From contig CALZUA010000030.1 in assembly GCA_945829235.1 (NCBI GenBank), forward strand, positions 1 to 38,705: a DNA stretch of 38,705 bases, in the 5' to 3' direction. The notes under the pieces are model-generated. The model made no database searches. It was not told where the DNA came from and saw only the letters and a list, made by a program, of their open reading frames with translations. The position numbers and the translations under genes were made by a program. Positions 2,483 to 11,463 of this stretch are shown piece by piece (positions within the stretch are counted from its first letter, which is position 1; each line of letters begins with the position of its first letter). Origin of the DNA: an uncultured Clostridia bacterium. GTDB lineage: Bacteria; Bacillota; Clostridia; Oscillospirales; Ruminococcaceae.

Positions 2483-2643
2483 GTTGCACTTACCGACCGT
2501 CCGCGCCAAAGCGTTAGTTGTTGACAACGCGAAGCTGTTGCATTTTTGGAAAATTTGTTGCAGAAAACACGGTTTTCACAAAATAGTTGCAAATATGGGA
2601 TATGAGTTGCACATTTTGCGTTTTGTGTTGACTTTTCTGCAAC
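2483..2643 (+). repeat. GTTGCA motif array upstream of the accessory operon
   Basis: GTTGCA occurs at 2483, 2537, 2557, 2586 and 2606, and inverted as TGCAAC at 2638-2643 inside the promoter spacer. Two pairs are spaced by exactly 20 bases. The left part of this gap also holds two imperfect copies of a CCGCGCC-AAGCGTTAG-TGTTG string (about 2465-2487 and 2501-2522). No gene was recognised between tuf and 2698. Confidence 0.45.
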
Positions 2644-2656
2644 CATACTGTATAAT
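2628..2656 (+). promoter_or_regulatory. Strong sigma-A promoter of the accessory operon
   Basis: TTGACT (2628-2633), a 17-base spacer and a perfect TATAAT (2651-2656). It lies 42 bases upstream of the first start codon and drives the three overlapping genes 2698-6430. Confidence 0.88.
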
Positions 2657-2663
2657 TGAATTA

Positions 2664-2684
2664 TCACAAACGACAAATTTGTGA
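2664..2684 (+). promoter_or_regulatory. Operator-like palindrome
   Basis: TCACAAA-N7-TTTGTGA is a perfect 7-7-7 inverted repeat starting 8 bases after the -10 box, where a bound repressor would block initiation. The first gene of the operon encodes an HTH protein, so autorepression is a natural inference. It overlaps the start of the AAAGGAG ribosome binding site. Confidence 0.6.
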
Positions 2685-2697
2685 AAGGAGTGAAAAA

Positions 2698-3990
2698 ATG
2701 AAAACGGAAAGCGATATCACATTTCTTTGTCGGAGAATGAAGGAGTTGCGCGAAAAGAACGGCATAAATCAGGTTGAAATGGGCGAAAAGCTCCACTTAA
2801 CCAAATCCACGGTTTCACGGATTGAAGCGGGAAAGCTTGGTGCGAAAAACACACGAGAATACGCCGTTGAATATTGCAAGACGTTTGGTATGACGAACGA
2901 ACGGCAGATTGAACAGTTTTTGCGCGGTGTTAAAATCGCGGTTCCGGACACTTCGGCGCTGTTGAAAAATCCTCAGCTTATCGATGAACTTAATAAGGAA
3001 TACGGGCGGGTTGTCATTGCAAAAAACGTTGTCGATGAGCTTGGCAGAATAAAGAACAAACACTCGGGTTCGCTCGGGACAAAAGCGTGGGAGGTTCTCC
3101 GCGGGATAAGCTCCGGCGCAAGGACGGAGCTTATGAATTATCGTGGAAGCAATTTCAACGAGAGCGAGGATTACAAAATCATTTCAATTGCCCGCGATGC
3201 CGTGGAAAAATATGGTTGCAAAGCCGATATTCTCACCGATGATATCGATTATTCCGCGTATCTCAAGAGCGATGAAAACGTGTCTGCTCTGCACCTGCGC
3301 GAATATATGTCAACCAAACAGGAGCTTGTCAATATGCTTCGGCTGAACGAGTTCGAGAAATATTACGCCGATAATTACGACAACATCGAGCCTTTCAACA
3401 AATCCGAGGTTAACGCACATCTCTCCGATGGGTATACTCTGATAATCTCCGCTGTAAGAAACCACTCGGCAACGTTTGAACAGCGCAAGAACAAAATAAA
3501 GTGGCTTATATCGCAGGGCGCTGATGTCAACAAGCGCGATTGTTGCCGCAGATATTTCCCACCGATATCTCACGCAATTCAGGTGAACGATTATGAAATG
3601 TTCTTGTTTCTCCTGAATGAGTGCAACGCAAACCCAAATATTGCCAGCAGAAATCCGTATGACGCTGGTAAAATCCGGCAAAAGAACGAGGGGAATATGC
3701 CGCTTATGATTGCGGCTTGGGACGGGAAAGACAAATTTGTCGAGGCGCTTTGCCGTGACAAGCGAACCAGCTTAAATCAGCAGGACGCAAACGGCTTCAC
3801 GGCGCTTATCAAGGCTTGCGCGAACGGCGATGTCAAATGTCGGGATATTCTTCTCAAAGCGGGCGCTGACACGAAAATCTCGGATATTAACGACAAAACC
3901 GCAGAGGATCATTACAATGATTATCTTGTGTTCGGGCGCTTGAAAAATCGTTTCCAACGCGGCGGGAAAAACAAGAGGAAAAAGCGATGA
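2698..3990 (+). CDS. HTH (XRE-like) - PIN-like nuclease - ankyrin-repeat protein
   Basis: A 430-aa fusion. Residues about 8-62 form an XRE-type helix-turn-helix (MKELREKNGINQ, LHLTKSTVSRIEAGK). Residues about 80-190 look like a PIN-domain RNase: VPDTSALLKNP with Asp84, NVVDELGRIK with Glu114, ESEDYKIISIARDA with Asp158, and ILTDDIDYSAYL with Asp181/182. The acidic active-site pattern is therefore complete. From about 240 to the end are ankyrin-like repeats (DGYTLIISAV, WLISQGADVNKRD, MPLMIAAWDG, NGFTALIKACANGD, ILLKAGADTKISD) and a basic tail. The ATG at 2698 is chosen because AAAGGAG precedes it; an upstream TTG at 2656 overlaps the -10 box. The stop overlaps the next ATG by four bases. Function is not known; a self-regulated, ankyrin-sensed RNase is an inference. 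Confidence 0.85.
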   Translation: MKTESDITFLCRRMKELREKNGINQVEMGEKLHLTKSTVSRIEAGKLGAKNTREYAVEYCKTFGMTNERQIEQFLRGVKIAVPDTSALLKNPQLIDELNKEYGRVVIAKNVVDELGRIKNKHSGSLGTKAWEVLRGISSGARTELMNYRGSNFNESEDYKIISIARDAVEKYGCKADILTDDIDYSAYLKSDENVSALHLREYMSTKQELVNMLRLNEFEKYYADNYDNIEPFNKSEVNAHLSDGYTLIISAVRNHSATFEQRKNKIKWLISQGADVNKRDCCRRYFPPISHAIQVNDYEMFLFLLNECNANPNIASRNPYDAGKIRQKNEGNMPLMIAAWDGKDKFVEALCRDKRTSLNQQDANGFTALIKACANGDVKCRDILLKAGADTKISDINDKTAEDHYNDYLVFGRLKNRFQRGGKNKRKKR

Positions 3991-4817
3991 TAACACGAAT
4001 TTGCATTTCAATCAACAACCGATGTAATCTCAACTGCAAGTACTGTCACTTTCACGAAAAAAGCGCTTTTATCGAGCCGCGCGAGATGAACATTTTTGCG
4101 GTGCTCGACAACGTTAAGGCTCACATCAAAAAGCACGAAATTCCGCTTTTCAAAATCGGTTTCGTGGGAAACGGCGAGCCGCTCTTGGACTTTGAGAGCT
4201 TGCGCGGATATGTTGAGTACATCGCCGATTACCTGAAAAGCGGCGTGATTTCCGCCTACACCATAACCAACGGTACGCTGATTAACGAGGAAATGCTTGG
4301 ATTTTTTCGGGAACACAAGATAAACGTTGGTTTTTCAATCGACGGTGTTCGTGAAATTCACAACAAACTGCGCTGTAACTCGTTTGACCGCACGATGAAC
4401 GGCATCGAGCTTTTCCGCAAAATCAACGGCTTTTACCCCTCGATGAACTGTACGGTTGGACAAGATGTCCTCGAACGTGCTGATGAAACGATAGATTTCT
4501 TCGCGCCATTTGACAGCAGGATTACCTTCTCGCGAATGATAGGTGAAAACGGTATCAGCTTGGCGGATTTTCGGGCTTTTCTTGAAAGAGCGTCCCGCAA
4601 GCTGTCCGTTCGGACAGGCGGATTTGATTGTACAATGTACGGTGGGAAGTGCGGCGCGGGCATCGATAACCCGTATTTTGCGAACGGAAGCGTGTTTATA
4701 TGCGGAAACTGCGTGGACTTGCCGACCGTGATTTCAGCCGATACACCGCTTGACGAGATTGATTTAGGGATAAAACCGTTCGACAGGCGGTTTTGTTACA
4801 AGGAGGCGATGAGATGA
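3987..4817 (+). CDS. Radical SAM protein with a C-terminal SPASM-like cysteine cluster
   Basis: Residues 13-20 carry the CNLNCKYC (CxxxCxxC) motif that binds the SAM-cleaving [4Fe-4S] cluster, followed by the SAM-binding GNGEPLLD stretch near 61-68 and the usual beta-barrel pattern (YTITNGTLI, VGFSIDGVREIHNKLR). Near residues 214-245 a second Cys set (FDCTMYGGKCGAG then NGSVFICGNC) resembles a SPASM-type auxiliary cluster, a feature of enzymes that modify peptides, although other substrates are possible. At 276 aa it is short for a SPASM enzyme. It starts inside the stop region of the upstream gene (ATGA) and ends overlapping the next ATG, so the three genes are translationally coupled. The substrate is unknown. 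Confidence 0.85.
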   Translation: MITRICISINNRCNLNCKYCHFHEKSAFIEPREMNIFAVLDNVKAHIKKHEIPLFKIGFVGNGEPLLDFESLRGYVEYIADYLKSGVISAYTITNGTLINEEMLGFFREHKINVGFSIDGVREIHNKLRCNSFDRTMNGIELFRKINGFYPSMNCTVGQDVLERADETIDFFAPFDSRITFSRMIGENGISLADFRAFLERASRKLSVRTGGFDCTMYGGKCGAGIDNPYFANGSVFICGNCVDLPTVISADTPLDEIDLGIKPFDRRFCYKEAMR

Positions 4818-6430
4818 GGATTGCGTTGTACGGTCTGCCTTGCGCGGGGAAAACCACGCTTTTGGCACAGCTCACCGAGATAAAAACGGTGAGCGGAAGC
4901 GAGGAGCTGAAACGGCTCTGTAAAGGCAATTTCTCGGATTTATCGGACAGTGAGCAAACCGCCGCGCGTGTAAAATACACCGAGTATCTTCGTTCGCTAG
5001 ACAACGAAATTGTACTCTCCGACGGACATTTTTCCTTTCTCGATAAGGTTGTTTTTACCGACGCGGACGCTGATGTGTACGACGTTTTTCTTTATCTTTA
5101 CTGTAACCCCGAGGTGCTGAGCGAGCGTTACCAAAATTCCCCGAAAAACGAACGCTACCGAAAACTCCCGACAACGCGCATTGCAAACTGGCAGATCAAT
5201 GAAATAGAGCGATTGCGCGAGGAGTGCCACAAGCGAAACCGTGATTTTTACGTTCTGAAAAGCGAGGGCTTAACCCCGAAAATGCTTCTCGATTTTATCG
5301 GCGAGATAAAAAACGGTTACAGCTCGTTTGGGGTTGCCGAGAGGATAGTCGCCGGAGTTAAGGAAAAATTCCCGCAGGTGTGCAAAATCAACATCGTTGA
5401 CGGGGACAAAACGCTGGTCAAAGAGGACCTGTTCGGCTGTTGCTCAAGTCGTACAACGCACACCTTTGACGGCGGTTTTTACACGGGTTATCAGTCGCTT
5501 TGCTTTGCCGAGGAAACCAAAGATGTGCAGTTTGACTGCGGAAAGCTCTCCAGGGTCAACTTGAACAGCGAGGTTTTCGACAGGATAAGCGGCGAGGGGT
5601 ACATTGTGTTGTCATCGGGGATTGCGGAGTTGTGGGAACAGCTCGGCGCTTTGCTCGGGATAAAAAATATCTTCGCAAGCCCGCTGATTTCCGCGGATAC
5701 GAAATTTTTTGTCGTGAAACTGCTGAGGGAGAGCGGCTACACCGTCACGGCGTTCGGCGACAGCAAAATTGATTTGTATATGCTGAGGGCGGCGAACGAG
5801 GGCTTTTTGTACCTCGGTGAACGAATGAGCAGGTCACTATATAATGTAGATGTAAGCGGAATAAATCTTATATATAGTAGAGAACCCATTGTTCTCGCGG
5901 ATATTGACGACAGCTTGACCGAAGCTATTGAGCTTACAAAATCGGACTCGGGTGTAAACGGCGGGCGGCTTGCGGCGGCGCATTTTCGGCTCGGCGAAAA
6001 GCTGGGGGCGGCAATCGGAAAGGCATTTCCCGCGATAAAAACCGCGGTTGTGGTTATGGAGCGGGGCGGGCGGTTTTTCGGTGACGGCTTGTACAGCGCG
6101 TTCGGCGGTGTTCTTTACCCGTACAATCCCGCTAAGGACAGCTTTCCCGATGTATCGCGGCACGAAATCGTGATAATCGCGGACAGCGTTGTCAACACGG
6201 CAAGCTCCGTCCTGAACGTCATCGCGCGGATAAAAACGCAAAACCCGCGAGCCGAGATAATTGTCGCGGCAAATGTTGTTCAACAAAACGCGCTCGCAAA
6301 GCTGAGCGGGTACAAGCTGTTTGCGGTACGCGTTTCGGGCAACTTTTTCGTTGGCAGAAAGCAGGCTGTTCAAACGGGCGAAACCGGTCCCGATACGGCG
6401 GACAGGCTGTTTAACCTGATTGACAGCTGA
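4814..6430 (+). CDS. Three-domain fusion: P-loop kinase, HAD phosphatase, UPRT-like phosphoribosyltransferase
   Basis: 538 aa from the ATG at 4814, preceded by AAGGAGG. Domain 1 (1-165) is a P-loop nucleotide or nucleoside kinase: GLPCAGKTT at 7-15 and SDGHFSF at 69-75. Domain 2 (about 190-345) is a HAD hydrolase: DGDKT (196-200) as motif I, VLSSG (265-269) as motif II, a Lys near 297-302 as motif III and GDSKID (315-320) as motif IV; the gap after motif I leaves room for a cap. Domain 3 (about 365-538) resembles uracil phosphoribosyltransferase: VVMERGG (413-419), IADSVVNTASS (455-465) in the PRPP-loop position and GPDTADRLF (525-533), like the GD-R-F end of UPRT. Together these suggest kinase, phosphatase and ribosyl-transfer chemistry on one nucleotide-like compound. 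The true reaction is unknown. Confidence 0.8.
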   Translation: MRIALYGLPCAGKTTLLAQLTEIKTVSGSEELKRLCKGNFSDLSDSEQTAARVKYTEYLRSLDNEIVLSDGHFSFLDKVVFTDADADVYDVFLYLYCNPEVLSERYQNSPKNERYRKLPTTRIANWQINEIERLREECHKRNRDFYVLKSEGLTPKMLLDFIGEIKNGYSSFGVAERIVAGVKEKFPQVCKINIVDGDKTLVKEDLFGCCSSRTTHTFDGGFYTGYQSLCFAEETKDVQFDCGKLSRVNLNSEVFDRISGEGYIVLSSGIAELWEQLGALLGIKNIFASPLISADTKFFVVKLLRESGYTVTAFGDSKIDLYMLRAANEGFLYLGERMSRSLYNVDVSGINLIYSREPIVLADIDDSLTEAIELTKSDSGVNGGRLAAAHFRLGEKLGAAIGKAFPAIKTAVVVMERGGRFFGDGLYSAFGGVLYPYNPAKDSFPDVSRHEIVIIADSVVNTASSVLNVIARIKTQNPRAEIIVAANVVQQNALAKLSGYKLFAVRVSGNFFVGRKQAVQTGETGPDTADRLFNLIDS

Positions 6431-6457
6431 ACGGCTTGTTGTTTTCGACAAAAATAT

Positions 6458-6484
6458 GCGCTCTCGACAACGAGGGCGCTTTTG
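6458..6484 (+). terminator. Intrinsic terminator of the accessory operon
   Basis: GCGCTCTCG (6458-6466) pairs with CGAGGGCGC (6471-6479), one G-U pair, loop ACAA, followed by TTTTG. It lies 27 bases after the stop of the kinase-HAD-PRTase gene. Confidence 0.85.
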
Positions 6485-6578: not shown

Positions 6579-6632
6579 ATGATTGATTACTTAGGCAAAC
6601 GCTTTTATAACCGGCTGAACAGCCTGTTCTAA
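6579..6632 (+). CDS. Possible 17-residue peptide gene
   Basis: ATG at 6579 opens a short frame encoding MIDYLGKRFYNRLNSLF. A strong GGAGG (6567-6571) sits 7 bases ahead, a better site than that of several long genes here. The peptide is basic and aromatic with an amphipathic look. It lies after the terminator of the radical SAM operon and before spoIIP, with no clear promoter of its own (a lone TATAAAT at 6539-6545). It could be a peptide substrate, a leader peptide or chance; length alone gives no support. Confidence 0.35.
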   Translation: MIDYLGKRFYNRLNSLF

Positions 6633-6675
6633 TTCAAATTTTTCGCGTCAAAAGTACAACTCACACATTTTCTCC

Positions 6676-6781: not shown

Positions 6782-7942
6782 ATGGGGAAATTCAAAAATC
6801 TGACAGTCGGCGCGGCGGCTGTTGCGCTGGCAATTCTCACCTGCACGGGAACCGATGTCGGGAATTTTATGCGAAAGGTGGCTTTTGCCTCGGCGGGAAT
6901 TTACGAAAAACCCGAAAATCCCGATGAAACGCACAAGCCAAGCTCCGACAGCGGGAGTGCAAGCACCGATGTTGTTGATGACAATAACGAAAGTTCATCG
7001 CAACCCTCGGTTGAACAGCCGTCAAGCGTTGAACCCAGCGAAAGCTCTGCGATAATCAACGAATCGCGCGGCGAGGTTATCACGCTGAACCGAACGACTG
7101 TTGCCGATGATACCGATTATTCGGTGTACAATTCGCAGAGCGGCGCGATTTATCGCTATAATTTCGGGAAAATGACGGGCGATTTTTACATAAATCTGAA
7201 AAGCGGCGCGCAGGTTCGGAACAACACCGATATTGCCAATGAAATTCTTGAAAAAGCCGCGGACGAGCTTCCCGAGTTCAACAAAAACACCGAGAAAAAC
7301 TCGCCGAGAGTGCTGATTTATCACACGCACTCAAACGAGAGTTTTTTGCCGAACGCGAGTTGGTTTGACGAGGAGTACCCGATACGCTCGGCGGATTGCT
7401 CGCGGAATATGATTGCGGTCGGCGATGCTCTCTGCGAGGCGCTTGCAAAGAACGGAATAACGGTTATCCACGAATGTAAACAGCACGACTACCCGATGTA
7501 CACGGGTGCGTATTATCGCTCCGCGGAAACCGTGAGCGCGCTTCTCGAGCAGTACCCCGATATCGACATTGTGATTGATTTGCACCGCGATGGGATTGTG
7601 CAATACGACGGTTCTCTCGGAGCACCTGTTTGCGAGGTGAACGGGAAAACCGCCGCGCAGTTTATGATAATTTCGTGTTGCGAGAACGAGGATTTTGATA
7701 TGCCCGATTATATCGAGAATTTCAAGCTCGCCTGTCTTTTGCAGAACACCGCCGAAGAAATGTACCCAAATCTCGCGCGCCCCGTGCTTTTTGATTATCG
7801 GAATTACAACCAAAATCTGTCAAAGGGCGCGCTTTTGATTGAGGTTGGAAGCCACGGAAATTCGCTTGACGAAGCGGTTTATACGGGTGAACTTTTGGGA
7901 AACGTCATAGCAAAGGCGCTCGAAAAAGCTACTCCAGATTAA
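6782..7942 (+). CDS. spoIIP: Stage II sporulation protein P (peptidoglycan amidase/endopeptidase)
   Basis: SpoIIP degrades septal peptidoglycan with SpoIID and SpoIIM during engulfment. Family motifs are visible: VLIYHTHSNESF (catalytic His), DIVIDLHRDG, and LLIEVGSHGNSLDEA near the C-terminus. An N-terminal hydrophobic segment (LTVGAAAVALAILTC) anchors it in the membrane and a Ser/Pro/Glu-rich linker follows. I place the start at 6782 (386 aa): it has GGGGTG five bases ahead, whereas the in-frame ATG at 6761 lies within the sigma-E -10 box. The 3' end overlaps the convergent helicase gene by 14 bases. It stands between two accessory modules rather than next to gpr, its neighbour in Bacillus. 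Confidence 0.92.
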   Translation: MGKFKNLTVGAAAVALAILTCTGTDVGNFMRKVAFASAGIYEKPENPDETHKPSSDSGSASTDVVDDNNESSSQPSVEQPSSVEPSESSAIINESRGEVITLNRTTVADDTDYSVYNSQSGAIYRYNFGKMTGDFYINLKSGAQVRNNTDIANEILEKAADELPEFNKNTEKNSPRVLIYHTHSNESFLPNASWFDEEYPIRSADCSRNMIAVGDALCEALAKNGITVIHECKQHDYPMYTGAYYRSAETVSALLEQYPDIDIVIDLHRDGIVQYDGSLGAPVCEVNGKTAAQFMIISCCENEDFDMPDYIENFKLACLLQNTAEEMYPNLARPVLFDYRNYNQNLSKGALLIEVGSHGNSLDEAVYTGELLGNVIAKALEKATPD

Positions 7943-10109
7943 CCAAATCCTCCGCGTCAAGATAATCCTCAACGTACTGCTTTTTGAGCAGCTCGCGCGG
8001 GATATAGTCGTTGTATTTCCCGCTGATTTCGCAGTTGTCGGGTATCGAAAACCCGTATTTGTCCGCCTTATTTCGCTTTATTTCATCGAGCGCGTTCACG
8101 AGAGCGCGCTTTCCTTTGTCCGTGTGAACCTCGATGCACACGGGAATGTACCGCGACAGATACACCTCCGCCGCAAACCCGCGCTCCCGCAAAGCGTACA
8201 GCAGAGCCATTGTCCCGCGCGTGCCGATAAACGGGAAAACCGCGTACATCGTGTCCGAGAGCGGCAGGACGATGTGCTCGTCGTGATTTTGCGCAACGGC
8301 GTTCCCGAACAGCGCGCGCACGTCCTCGAGCCGTTTTTTCGCGCTCTCGTCCAAGAAGCCGTATTCCTCGCCGCTCGTGAGCACCTCGAGAATTTTCTTC
8401 ATCACGCGCGTGTGAACGTACTCGTTGCCGGTGTCCGTCCACATATTCGCGGAAATTCCCTCAACGTGCTTGACGTAGATAATCTGCGCCTTTTTATCCA
8501 GCTCGACAACCTCCCAAGCCTGTCCCGCAAGCGCAAATTGACTTTTCGGCGGGAACGGATTCTGAACCGTGCCGATAACCTCGGAGTTGTTTCTCACGGT
8601 AAACTCAACCGGTACCGAAAACACCGCCAGAAACTCGTAGTTGTTGACAGCCGCCTCACCTTTTTCGCCGATAAGCAGCGCGCCGTCCTCGCAGCGTTCA
8701 AGGTGACCGTTCTCCAAAAGCTCACGCAAAAGCGCGAGGTAATCCTCTTTTGTGACATTTGAGAACACGGAAAGCGTGAGGACTTGCCGCGCAAGCTCTC
8801 GCGGCTGAAGCGAGCCGTTTGCCGCCATTATCGACATCGTTTGGTGATAGAGCAACGAAAACGGGAGCTTCGGCAGATACATCGGTTCAACAAATTTTTC
8901 GCGCGTGTACAGCAAAATCTGCGCCGCGCACATCACGAAATCCCAGTTGATTTCGCGGTAAAAATCGGTTTTCGGCAGGCTCATATCGTACCGAAAAGCA
9001 AAGCGCATCTCCGCTTCACCGCCGCGCCGACCTGTTCTGCCAAGCCTCTGTACAAGCCCCGAAACCGTGAGCGGACAGCCCGTCTGGACAATCCTCTCCA
9101 GCTTTCCCAAATCAATTCCCAGCTCCAGCGTAACCGTTGCTCCCGTGCAGACAGGCAATTCGCCGTTTTTCATACTTTTCTCGGCAAACTCACGCAGCGC
9201 GGGAGAAATGTTCGCGTGGTGAACGAGATAACAGCCGCCGTCGTGATTTTTCTCGGAAATCGCCTTGATGTGCGCGATATTTTCCTCAACCTCGCCCTTG
9301 CTGTTCGAGAACAAAATGCACCGTTTTCCGCGCGTACACTCGTAGAGATAATCGTAATAATTCTGCAAAAGCGTCTTGCTGTTTCCGTTCGGGATTTTCT
9401 CGGCGATGGGAAAAAAACGCACGGACAGCCGAACTTTTCTGCCCTTATCCGCACATTTCGGCGTTGAACAAGCGCGGCTTGTGCCCATATTCAGCCACTT
9501 CTCGGCATTTCGGGTATCGCCGAGCGTTGCCGAAAGACCGATTCTGCGCGGCGTGAAGCCGATTATGCGCTGTATTCTTTCGAGCACCGATAGCAACTGC
9601 AAGCCGCGGTCGTTATCCATAAAATAGTGAACTTCATCGATAATTACGAAACGCAAATCCGAGAAAAGCCGCGAAACCGCGTTGCTGTTGCGGATAAGCA
9701 GACTTTCAAGGCTCTCGGGAGTTGTCTGCATAACGCCGCGCGGGTTCTTGACAAGGCGCTTTTTTGCCGTGGGAGAAGCGTCGCCGTGCCACTTGGTGAC
9801 GGGGATATCCTGTTCATCGAGAAGCTCTTGGAGCCGCTCAAACTGGTCGTTGATGAGCGCCTTGAGCGGTGAAACGTAAAGCACGCCGACCGAGCCGGAC
9901 GGGTTCTCCCAAAGGTGCGTGAGGACGGGCAGAAACGCGGCTTCGGTCTTGCCGCTTGCCGTTCCCGAAGCGAGAAGAAGGTTGTCGTCCGTGTCAAAGA
10001 CAACCCGCGCCGCTTCAACCTGTATCGGGCGCAGCTCCTCCCACTTGTTGCGGTAGATGAAGTCCTGAATAAACGGTGCAAGCCGGTAAAAAATCGCGTT
10101 TTCGCTCAT
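7929..10109 (-). CDS. Lhr-like superfamily II helicase, BrxHI type
   Basis: 726 aa. Helicase motifs appear in order: LRPIQVEAA (Q-like), LLASGTASGKTEA (Walker A), VSPLKALINDQF (Ia), TTPESLESLL (Ib), FVIIDEVHYF (Walker B, DEVH), IGLSATLGD (III), VCTGATVTLELGID (V) and VQRLGRTGRRG (VI). The C-terminal half has the long accessory region of Lhr-type enzymes. Size and the partner gene match BrxHI of type 2 BREX phage defence. Its ATG overlaps the stop of the upstream ATPase gene by four bases, so the two are coupled. PglX methylase, PglZ, PglY and PglW are all absent here; other small DNA-processing roles are possible. Confidence 0.85.
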   Translation of the reverse strand: MSENAIFYRLAPFIQDFIYRNKWEELRPIQVEAARVVFDTDDNLLLASGTASGKTEAAFLPVLTHLWENPSGSVGVLYVSPLKALINDQFERLQELLDEQDIPVTKWHGDASPTAKKRLVKNPRGVMQTTPESLESLLIRNSNAVSRLFSDLRFVIIDEVHYFMDNDRGLQLLSVLERIQRIIGFTPRRIGLSATLGDTRNAEKWLNMGTSRACSTPKCADKGRKVRLSVRFFPIAEKIPNGNSKTLLQNYYDYLYECTRGKRCILFSNSKGEVEENIAHIKAISEKNHDGGCYLVHHANISPALREFAEKSMKNGELPVCTGATVTLELGIDLGKLERIVQTGCPLTVSGLVQRLGRTGRRGGEAEMRFAFRYDMSLPKTDFYREINWDFVMCAAQILLYTREKFVEPMYLPKLPFSLLYHQTMSIMAANGSLQPRELARQVLTLSVFSNVTKEDYLALLRELLENGHLERCEDGALLIGEKGEAAVNNYEFLAVFSVPVEFTVRNNSEVIGTVQNPFPPKSQFALAGQAWEVVELDKKAQIIYVKHVEGISANMWTDTGNEYVHTRVMKKILEVLTSGEEYGFLDESAKKRLEDVRALFGNAVAQNHDEHIVLPLSDTMYAVFPFIGTRGTMALLYALRERGFAAEVYLSRYIPVCIEVHTDKGKRALVNALDEIKRNKADKYGFSIPDNCEISGKYNDYIPRELLKKQYVEDYLDAEDLVNLE

Positions 10110-11416
10110 AAATCAAAATCCTCGAAACCGTCGGCTTTGTCCTCGCCCTCACCCTCGGCGAATTTGAATTCGTCCTCGCCCATAAGCTCGGCGATTGTCT
10201 TGTCGGGATTCTGGTAGGCGATGTTCAACAGCTCGATAAAGTCGCGTATCATCTCGCGCGGCGTGATATTCGAGTCCGCGCCTATTCTCCCGAACTCCGC
10301 CTTGACGAAGAAAATTCTGTCCTCGAGCGTGATTTTCGGCTCATAGTCGAACACAACCCCGTGGATTTCCGCGAGCTTTTCCGTGAGCACGGTAAGCTCC
10401 TCGTAATTCAGCGGCGACAGCCTGATAATCGGCGACATCAAGTCTTTAACATCGTCCGTTGCAAAGCGTCCTCTCTCCAAGCGCGAGCGAAGCGCCTCGT
10501 AGCTGAAAACGCCGCGGCGCGTGTCCTCAACGCACTGCGGAGTGCCGCCGAGGATTATGCCGAGATTGTGCGCCTTGCCCTGCATCACGTCGTTGTACAT
10601 CATCAGGATTTTCTCGTAGTTGTACTGCCGCGTGACGGAATTTGAGATTTTCATTATATTTACCAGCTCGTCAATCATCACGACAAGCCCCTTGTAGCCC
10701 GCGCTCACGAGGAAAGACGTCATCAGCTTGAGGTAATCGTACCAGTTTTCATCGTTGATGATTGTGCTGACGTTCAGACATTCGCGCGCTTCGGTTTTCG
10801 TGGAAAACTCGCCGCGAAGCCAGCGGATTGCGTTGCGCTGTTTTTCATCGTTCCCGTCACGGAAGCCGTGATAATACTCCGCGATAATTGTCGCGAACTC
10901 AAATCCGTGTACCATATCTTCAAGACCGTTGATTTTCGCGAAGATGCGCTTTTCAACCTCAACGCTAAAGAAAAGGTTGTCGCGGGTGATTTTGCCCTCG
11001 GCGAGAACCTCGTTTCGTACACCGTCAATCCACTTCTCGAGAATAAGCGAGAGCGCGCCGCCATCGGGTTTTGCCTTAACGGAGAGGTTTTTCATCAGCT
11101 CACGGTAGGTTGCCAAGCCCTGACCTTTTGTACCGCAAAGACGGCGCTCGGGGGACAAATCGGCGTCGGCTGTTGCAAAACCTCGGTCGGTGACGTGAGC
11201 GCGCATTGTTTGGAGGAGAAAGCTCTTGCCGCTTCCATAACGCCCGACAATAAACCGGAAAAACGCGCCGCCGTCCTCGGCTATCGCGACATCTTTGAGG
11301 AGCGCGTCAATTTCATCGGAGCGCCCGACTGCGATGTAACCAAGTCCCGTGCGCGGAACAACGCCGCCCTTGAGCGCGTTTATCAAACCCGAAGCAATTC
11401 TTTTTGGTATCTGCAC
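10106..11416 (-). CDS. BrxD-like P-loop ATPase (BREX BrxC/BrxD family)
   Basis: 436 aa. The N-terminus IASGLINALKGGVVPRTGLGYIAVGR is followed by FIVGRYGSGKSFLLQ (Walker A) and GLVVMIDELVNIM (Walker B), then GIILGGTPQCVEDTRRG and LSPLNYEELTVL, the pattern of the family formerly DUF2791. I choose a GTG start at 11416: AGAGG lies nine bases ahead and the encoded MQIPKRIASG matches the family start, while an upstream TTG at 11446 would overlap the ribosome binding site. It is first in a two-gene unit with the helicase and has a strong promoter divergent from cca. The C-terminal tail is very acidic (FAEGEGEDKADGFEDFDL). Confidence 0.82.
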   Translation of the reverse strand: MQIPKRIASGLINALKGGVVPRTGLGYIAVGRSDEIDALLKDVAIAEDGGAFFRFIVGRYGSGKSFLLQTMRAHVTDRGFATADADLSPERRLCGTKGQGLATYRELMKNLSVKAKPDGGALSLILEKWIDGVRNEVLAEGKITRDNLFFSVEVEKRIFAKINGLEDMVHGFEFATIIAEYYHGFRDGNDEKQRNAIRWLRGEFSTKTEARECLNVSTIINDENWYDYLKLMTSFLVSAGYKGLVVMIDELVNIMKISNSVTRQYNYEKILMMYNDVMQGKAHNLGIILGGTPQCVEDTRRGVFSYEALRSRLERGRFATDDVKDLMSPIIRLSPLNYEELTVLTEKLAEIHGVVFDYEPKITLEDRIFFVKAEFGRIGADSNITPREMIRDFIELLNIAYQNPDKTIAELMGEDEFKFAEGEGEDKADGFEDFDL

Positions 11417-11463
11417 GATAAACAACCTCTTTTCTTTAAAATCCAACTAAATCCTATCTTTTC

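Follow-up and report, generated by a model that had tools for sequence, protein, structure and literature searches.

The question raised by the DNA analysed here, a stretch of 38,705 nucleotides from an uncultured Clostridia bacterium of the Ruminococcaceae (hereafter the window), concerns the purpose of a three-gene operon near its start. Gene 1 joins an XRE-type helix-turn-helix (HTH), a PIN nuclease domain and ankyrin repeats in one chain, gene 2 encodes a radical S-adenosylmethionine (SAM) enzyme, and gene 3 fuses a P-loop kinase, a HAD domain and a phosphoribosyltransferase (PRTase). Comparison of sequences speaks directly to the conservation of the operon, its catalytic residues, its operator arrays, the exchange of gene 1 and, in some loci, its neighbours, and it supports the view that the operon is one functional unit, which probably serves defence as such. 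The reading that is favoured, tentatively and with somewhat less than even confidence, is that of a mobile unit for anti-phage defence or inter-element exclusion, in which a signal-making arm of enzymes would produce a nucleotide-like ligand, while a sensor-effector arm would read this ligand through its ankyrins and thereby switch an autorepressing RNase.

Fifty-four loci, denoted by L numbers, were collected with an alignment of the radical SAM protein: the window itself, 48 loci from 84,980 species genomes and five from IMG/VR, many of them being contigs of metagenome-assembled genomes. Gene 1, the radical SAM gene, the kinase-HAD region and the PRTase were found in the same order in 45 of the 54 loci, a figure that is conditional on the radical SAM gene because the loci were collected through it, and in which completeness means domain matches at 1e-6 (for gene 1 through its ankyrins) and not a residue check. 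Six loci are interrupted by contig ends (L041, L045, L049, L059, L076 and L085) and three are decayed (L067, L081 and L087). Gene 1 overlaps or directly adjoins the radical SAM gene in 45 of 52 cases, as the radical SAM gene does the kinase gene in 41 of 50. The PRTase is fused within gene 3 in 14 of the 45 full loci and forms a separate open reading frame (ORF) in the other 31.

Searches from the other genes, which were smaller than the radical SAM search, converged on the same operon whether the starting point was gene 1, gene 3 or the PRTase. In the class sample, 84 of 391 genomes were listed with the gene 3 profile, and the full matches were the window, G348 and G378, all carrying the operon; the others were partial, with E-values no better than 1e-8, and concerned chiefly the HAD region, and one of these partial matches (G493) proved on inspection of its locus to be unrelated. 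The gene 1 search of this sample gave 4 of 391 genomes, namely the window, G348, G378 and G181, the contig of the last being identical letter for letter to L041, with gene 1 and the radical SAM gene followed by the contig end. A search of the family sample gave 4 of 148 genomes; the match in G077 (4.8e-4) was rejected as partial and in an unrelated setting. Among viral contigs, all five loci found with the PRTase were the contigs already found with the radical SAM alignment, as were four of the five found with the kinase-HAD region; the fifth, L097, is doubtful, and tblastn with gene 1, the radical SAM protein and a PRTase gave no match there. With gene 1, five of seven viral loci were the operon, one was a contig end (L104) and one an unrelated ankyrin array (L109), which was dropped as an ankyrin-only locus; it holds at least four ankyrin-only ORFs in about 9 kb with no relation to the operon. 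No match to gene 3 was found in phage and plasmid records, nor did an early viral scan with a three-row alignment yield a match. The operon, which occurs in gut bacteria, is rare and patchy, being found in 1 of 31 genus genomes and 1 of 398 phylum genomes, the window's own in both samples. Homologues scattered and apart from each other, which the preliminary description of this DNA had named as evidence that would tell against a unit, were looked for and not found.

Gene 1 carries its HTH at about residues 9-65, the PIN domain at about 80-205 and the ankyrin repeats at about 240-405 (Pfam HTH_3 1.5e-7, PIN_4 3.8e-8 and Ank_2 1.9e-16). This architecture, with all acidic residues of the PIN active site, had been described from the window alone and is borne out by the family alignment, in which D84 is kept in 50, E114 in 52, D158 in 49 and D182 in 54 of 55 rows. 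In the ankyrin region, twelve positions (N330, N333, P335, L336, M337, V348, N360, D363, N365, G366, K372 and D391) are invariant across all 56 rows and hold across the exchanged gene-1 types as well, and because of this invariance we infer that one ligand is probably read by all versions of gene 1. RNase L chains are among the PDB matches to these ankyrins, a similarity that is generic for ankyrins.

Gene 3 comprises a P-loop nucleotide-kinase-like domain (about residues 1-175), a HAD domain (about 190-350) and a type I PRTase (about 370-538). The Pfam matches of the window protein were AAA_18 at 1.9e-7, UPRTase at 2.4e-5 and HAD at 0.0047, the last two lying under the Pfam cut-offs for this protein; these weak calls, also made in the preliminary description, are upheld by the family, since the HAD residues D196, D198, T200, K297, G315, D316 and D320 are each kept in 49 of 49 rows (a count that excludes L081, of 112 residues) and Pribosyltran matches 13 of 13 PRTase rows, at best with 6.4e-10. 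The kinase residues G7, G12, K13, D70 and H72 are likewise kept in 49 of 49 rows each, and the PRTase residues R417 and D457 in 46 of 47, and G525 and R531 in 46 of 46. The earlier label of a UPRT-like PRTase stands in part: the UPRTase model of Pfam recognises 12 of the 13 PRTase rows (1.7e-10 at best), whereas the profile search of structures favoured hypoxanthine phosphoribosyltransferase (HPRT, best 6.4e-5) over uracil phosphoribosyltransferase (UPRT, 0.033), and hhalign favoured the host genome's own HPRT (1.8e-6) over its own UPRT (0.14).

Kinase-HAD fusions of the T4 Pnkp type heal RNA ends, and the pairing found in gene 3 recalls them. Thus, the operon might serve RNA-end or nucleotide repair, the PIN domain trimming damaged RNA while the kinase and HAD domains heal the ends or recycle an odd nucleotide. 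This explanation is considered quite improbable, as no ligase, 2H/cyclase or other end-healing gene was recognised among the recurrent neighbour clusters, of which some, a few in all, are annotated, the HAD domain matches ThrH-type models (3.6e-5), and we know of no role of a PRTase or a radical SAM enzyme in RNA-end repair. Of the earlier proposal that the unit makes or repairs a modified nucleotide or RNA end, a nucleotide-making role of kinase, HAD and PRTase is supported, as a reading, by the conserved residues, and the repair of RNA ends is weakened by the lack of a recognised ligase or end-healing gene.

Gene 2 matches Radical_SAM of Pfam at 2.6e-16, and its Cx3Cx2C cysteines (C13, C17 and C20) are each present in 51 of 51 rows. 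Auxiliary cysteines are kept too, C215 and C222 in 51 of 52 rows each, C239 in 50 of 52 and C270 in 50 of 51. The definitions of the SPASM and Twitch motifs include a CX9-15GX4C auxiliary motif, and C222-x11-G-x4-C239 has this form. The radical SAM/SPASM-like character claimed for gene 2 is therefore retained as regards the Radical_SAM match and this motif, but not as regards the last full SPASM set of cysteines, which is absent.

The best NCBIfam and PDB matches of gene 2 are protein or peptide maturases, which, together with the CX11GX4C motif, would suit an operon in which gene 1 or a small peptide is the substrate of the radical SAM enzyme, in the manner of SPASM maturases. Nevertheless, no short ORF led by a ribosome-binding site (RBS) is shared within 450 bp 3' of the operon across 46 loci, a search limited to the downstream side and the operon's own strand; such ORFs occur in 12 of the 46, and their mutual local scores, no better than 23 on the bits scale, mark them as unrelated. 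No precursor-recognition domain was matched by Pfam in the three operon proteins, and the PRTase, kinase and HAD domains would be left unexplained, so that this is the least probable of the explanations weighed here and a highly improbable one. The route through a precursor of a ribosomally synthesised and post-translationally modified peptide was dropped, the post-operon ORFs having nothing in common. In the window, a 17-codon RBS-led ORF lies 3' of the terminator at 6580-6633; it is unique to the window, with no relative among the short ORFs that follow the operon elsewhere.

The closest contest lies between the enzyme arm and the PIN domain as the weapon. If the enzyme arm were the weapon, it would act through an antiviral nucleotide analogue or a toxic PRTase, and gene 1 would be chiefly a regulator. 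Type III retrons and a DprA-PRTase system probably use their PRTases as effectors (PMC12548924 and PMC9122126), and PRTase_III-A models of PADLOC match the operon's PRTases weakly (no model matching more than 5 of 79 rows, with 2.5e-5 as the best value). Gene 2 also matches the pVip models of PADLOC at 6.2e-14, although several maturase models score higher, and against the viperin equivalog NF038283 it reaches 49.7 bits where the cut-off is 180. Additionally, the retention of its PIN acids in 49 to 54 of 55 rows suggests that gene 1 does more than regulate. That the enzyme arm is the weapon is on balance unlikely, and the PIN domain is preferred as the candidate effector.

The operon of the window is real, consisting of three ORFs on the plus strand with an ATGA overlap at each joint (Table 1); at the first joint the ATG at 3987 overlaps the TGA at 3988-3990, and at the second the ATG at 4814 overlaps the TGA at 4815-4817. 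The coordinates and both overlaps reported in the preliminary description were reproduced, and its strong promoter and terminator were both found. This promoter ranks first among 11 promoter-like sites, where shuffles give 4.5 +/- 2.0.

Table 1. Positions of the operon's genes and control elements in the window
Feature	Position	Strand	Basis
Array of six GTTGCA/TGCAAC sites	2483..2643	.	Likely operator of the gene 1 HTH
Sigma-70-type promoter TTGACT-17-TATAAT	2628..2656	+	11/12 consensus matches; TGCAAC site in spacer
Palindrome TCACAAA-N7-TTTGTGA	2664..2684	.	Named in the preliminary description
Gene 1, XRE HTH + PIN + ankyrin	2698..3990	+	ORF, Pfam, family alignment
Gene 2, radical SAM enzyme	3987..4817	+	ORF, Pfam, Cys motifs
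Gene 3, P-loop kinase + HAD + PRTase fusion	4814..6430	+	ORF, Pfam, family alignment
Intrinsic terminator stem	6458..6479	+	Stem, then TTTTGTTG

The preliminary description had proposed that gene 1 represses its own operon and that a single palindrome is the operator. The former idea gained from the comparison and the latter fell, since the palindrome was found 5' of a single gene-1 row out of 54, that of the window, and is missing from the 53 other upstream regions; what recurs instead is an array of GTTGCA. In the window, its sites stand at 2483, 2537, 2557, 2586 and 2606 (+) and at 2638 (-), six per 161 bp, one of them inside the promoter spacer, and by eye TGCAAC-like promoter spacers are seen in many homologues. 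The test of such arrays used 46 of 56 gene-1 rows, leaving aside four second tandem copies, L055, L087 and four rows with less than 260 bp upstream, and took its expectation from random windows of the same loci. GTTGCA was the top enriched 6-mer 5' of gene 1 in the 23 loci of the first HTH type (79 seen versus 5.2 +/- 4.0 expected), at least two sites being present in 21 of the 23. For the second HTH type (14 loci) the corresponding motif was TGTGCA (40 versus 2.6 +/- 2.6; at least two sites in 8 of 14), and the cross-test gave 7 versus 3.6 +/- 1.8 for TGTGCA in the first type and 1 versus 1.9 +/- 1.4 for GTTGCA in the second. In the nine loci of other HTH types (type 3), neither motif was enriched. 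For this test the types were set post hoc by simple motifs; for the tree they were based on gene-1 identity, L045 and L092 being typed differently in the two, and because types were assigned once the rows were known the result is strong but not blind. Direct autorepression by the gene 1 HTH, with an operator that changes with the HTH type, fits these observations, since the arrays follow the HTH type and a TGCAAC site lies in the promoter spacer.

Between related loci, gene 1 diverges far more than the enzymes. L040 and L042 share 85% identity in the radical SAM protein, 72% in gene 3 and 32% in gene 1, and L051 and L049 share 81%, 87% (kinase-HAD) and 31%, respectively; in the reverse case, L042 and L070 share 91% in gene 1, 73% in the radical SAM protein and 70% in gene 3. 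On the radical SAM tree, built by a quick method from all 52 radical SAM rows, the gene-1 class changes at least 12 times, versus at least twice for the fused or split state of gene 3. Judged from these comparisons, gene 1 is exchanged as a module while the enzymes stay. The roles of gene 1 may also be divided between copies: in L062 and L090, a copy with HTH, damaged PIN (D84H) and ankyrins stands beside an HTH-less copy with the four PIN acids, and in L077 and L069 a second copy has E114 and D158 altered. Ankyrins are retained in both kinds of paired copy.

Loci that have lost parts bear on whether the enzymes hold the RNase in check. In L067, gene 1 is 96% identical to that of L042 and keeps the four PIN acids, the radical SAM gene is truncated, and a search of the genome at an E-value of 1e-10 detected no kinase-HAD; in L081, gene 1 is retained with its PIN acids and the kinase-HAD ends at about 103 residues. 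L079 has the enzymes with an HTH/D84H copy, and of a further copy it has a remnant of 43 residues, similar to the second copy of L062, in which the PIN domain is intact. As natural losses, these three loci argue that the enzymes are not required to restrain the putative RNase of gene 1. They thus count against a metabolite antitoxin, in which a small molecule made by the enzymes would hold the PIN RNase off through the ankyrins, so that host shut-off or loss of the element would free the toxin, as in an addiction module. The overlap of toxin, sensor and enzymes in one transcription unit, the location of the operon on mobile elements in some loci and an autoregulation resembling that of toxin-antitoxin operons would agree with such a module. 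It is nevertheless rather unlikely, given that full-length gene 1 outlives truncated or missing enzymes in L067 and L081 and that L079 keeps the enzymes with just a remnant that resembles a PIN-intact copy. At the third decayed locus, L087 (7363-9511), a tyrosine integrase starts shortly after the first 19 codons of the radical SAM gene, and the ankyrin half of gene 1 lies upstream, overlapping a transposase-like ORF as seen by eye; mobile elements have landed in the operon here.

A conflict or defence setting is supported in some loci. A NERD-domain protein accompanies 14 of the 54 loci, the window not being among them, and lies inside the operon in three; that of L051 matches PF08378 at 3.5e-15. 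Four viral contigs hold members of its family, all of them carrying the operon, and in the class sample the family matched in 3 of 391 genomes, namely G348, with the operon, and two others with matches of 5e-37 and 5e-21. The order in L051 is tail, holin, endolysin, operon, NERD, HNH and integrase, and lysis-side neighbours recur in L049, L088 and L090. Relatives of a serine recombinase adjoin 8 of 54 loci (two were checked by Pfam), a DdmE-like protein (1.7e-9) adjoins L046, and partial matches were obtained for a helicase next to L042 (DrmD-type) and for an AAA protein next to L056 (restriction-type). PADLOC gave no match for the NERD protein of L051 or for L042 572-3088, L084 2316-3050 and L056 14957-16270. 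On the radical SAM tree, a group with a support of 99 includes L045, a copy from Pseudomonadota, the other named members of this group being Bacillota.

Further neighbours were observed beside the operon. An RNase_T-type exonuclease lies 146-346 bp from it in L065 (821-1471), L083 (5735-6385) and L084 (10797-11495); L065 and L083 are near-copies, and the exonuclease of L084 matches DEDDh models. Two families of small proteins, mostly of 70-78 residues (at most 164), occur in seven loci each, about 0.4-2.5 kb 3' of the operon, accompanied in some loci by a small HNH protein, and their members at L051 11969-12867 had no Pfam or PHROG match. In the window, just past spoIIP, a Shango-type SngC helicase (8.8e-218) and a SngB/BrxC-D ATPase (1.6e-177) are encoded at 7929-11446 (-). 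The SngC helicase also adjoins spoIIP in a same-genus genome, with 83% identity over a 71-residue end piece, and the two genes may be a stable chromosomal pair.

For the favoured anti-phage unit, it is proposed that the enzymes act in one path towards a nucleotide product, that the ankyrins bind it, that the PIN domain cuts RNA and that a phage provides the trigger. The PRTase would join a base to phosphoribosyl pyrophosphate, the radical SAM enzyme would alter the base or the nucleotide, the kinase would phosphorylate the product and the HAD domain would remove a phosphate, giving an unusual nucleotide. The ankyrins of gene 1 would read its level while the HTH keeps the operon down; infection would shift the ligand level or lift the repression, and the PIN domain would then cut RNA, halting growth ahead of phage release. 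An activating ligand is favoured, given that loss of the enzymes has left gene 1 intact, and the NERD protein would be an optional additional part.

Several observations weigh against this proposal. The annotated neighbours are those of selected loci and have no matched control set, so that they put no figure on any enrichment of defence genes. The window copy lies outside any recognisable prophage and has an ordinary base composition, and an empty site beside tuf/spoIIP was not shown, tuf being there in none of five same-genus loci. Swapping of gene 1, albeit real, is not free, because gene-1 class is clustered on the radical SAM tree (12 changes versus a shuffled mean of 19.6), and the starred branches alone force three, three and one changes for the three gene-1 classes. 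Autorepression by the HTH alone could render gene 1 harmless in L067 and L081, and these loci consequently give no proof of the direction of control. An operator array of either motif tested is missing from six of the 14 type-2 loci and from the nine type-3 loci. Finally, the PRTase is firmly assigned as to enzyme class, and the evidence for UPRT and HPRT is in conflict, so that the base it would use is left open.

New in the present analysis are the PRTase as a separate ORF, the NERD partner, the HTH-type-specific arrays, the exchange of gene 1, the division of HTH and working PIN between copies, and the prophage, recombinase and defence-like neighbours. If the proposal is true, it would add a nucleotide messenger made by a radical SAM enzyme and an RNase read through ankyrins to the signals of phage-host conflict, and would offer a natural test of ankyrin repeat function in bacteria, in which split-role copies and effector swaps could help to tell sensing from repression and killing. 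Should there be no such messenger, the rigid conservation of a mobile operon of PRTase, kinase, HAD and radical SAM domains would still point to unknown nucleotide chemistry.

As regards known systems, a literature search with preprints and most subscription journals outside its scope found none with this gene content, as the preliminary description had supposed, and the gene set is not described in the accessible part of PMC9503650. In PADLOC 2023, the window proteins gave no named match beyond the ankyrin region of candidate PDC-M72A and a below-par match to pVip, alongside generic HTH and ankyrin models, and the family gave below-par matches to PRTase_III-A; the PDC-M72A match joins residues 237-405 of gene 1 to positions 222-368 of 392 (1.3e-13), leaving HTH and PIN outside, and no further PDC-M72 model matched genes 2 and 3. 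For each named family compared, at least one defining feature fails or the fit is not decided. For Ter networks, it has been proposed that a nucleoside or nucleotide signal, with separate sensors and responders, is the product of PRTases and HAD enzymes (PMC7824862). The operon shares the PRTase and HAD, adds a radical SAM enzyme and a kinase, and has an HTH-PIN-ankyrin protein as its sensor-effector, but its three proteins include no TerB, TerD, TelA, TerC or ATP-grasp (wider neighbourhoods were not scanned). With pVip it shares a radical SAM enzyme in a defence setting, the viperin model of PADLOC being described as 'associated with kinases', while it differs in falling far under the viperin cut-off, in its SPASM/Twitch-type cysteine motif and in its PRTase and HAD partners. 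Type III-A retrons and DprA-PRTase likewise set a PRTase with a DNA-binding or DprA partner against phage (PMC12548924 and PMC9122126), whereas the operon proteins include no reverse transcriptase or DprA and the PRTase similarity is weak. A PIN RNase effector is common to VapBC and to DS-3 and DS-5, which defend against phage and need their PIN catalytic residues (PMC13092281), and the operon's PIN domain keeps its acidic active site. Unlike VapBC, the operon has no separate antitoxin gene; HTH, PIN and ankyrins form one chain, and the adjoining genes are enzymes. CBASS-type systems couple a nucleotide signal to an exchangeable effector, and RNase L is an ankyrin-sensed nuclease; the three operon proteins had no Pfam or PADLOC match to a cyclase or TIR signal maker of CBASS, Thoeris or Pycsar, and no oligoadenylate synthase is present in the operon, so that the likeness proposed, of nucleotide signal, exchangeable effector and ankyrin-sensed nuclease, is one of analogy. 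It is possible, if on the doubtful side, that the operon represents a novel class of immunity, in which a modified nucleotide messenger made by radical SAM, PRTase, kinase and HAD enzymes would be bound by ankyrins and would switch a one-chain repressor-RNase, the effector being exchanged while the chemistry is kept; such a class would resemble CBASS in its logic, with other chemistry and an ankyrin sensor like that of RNase L.

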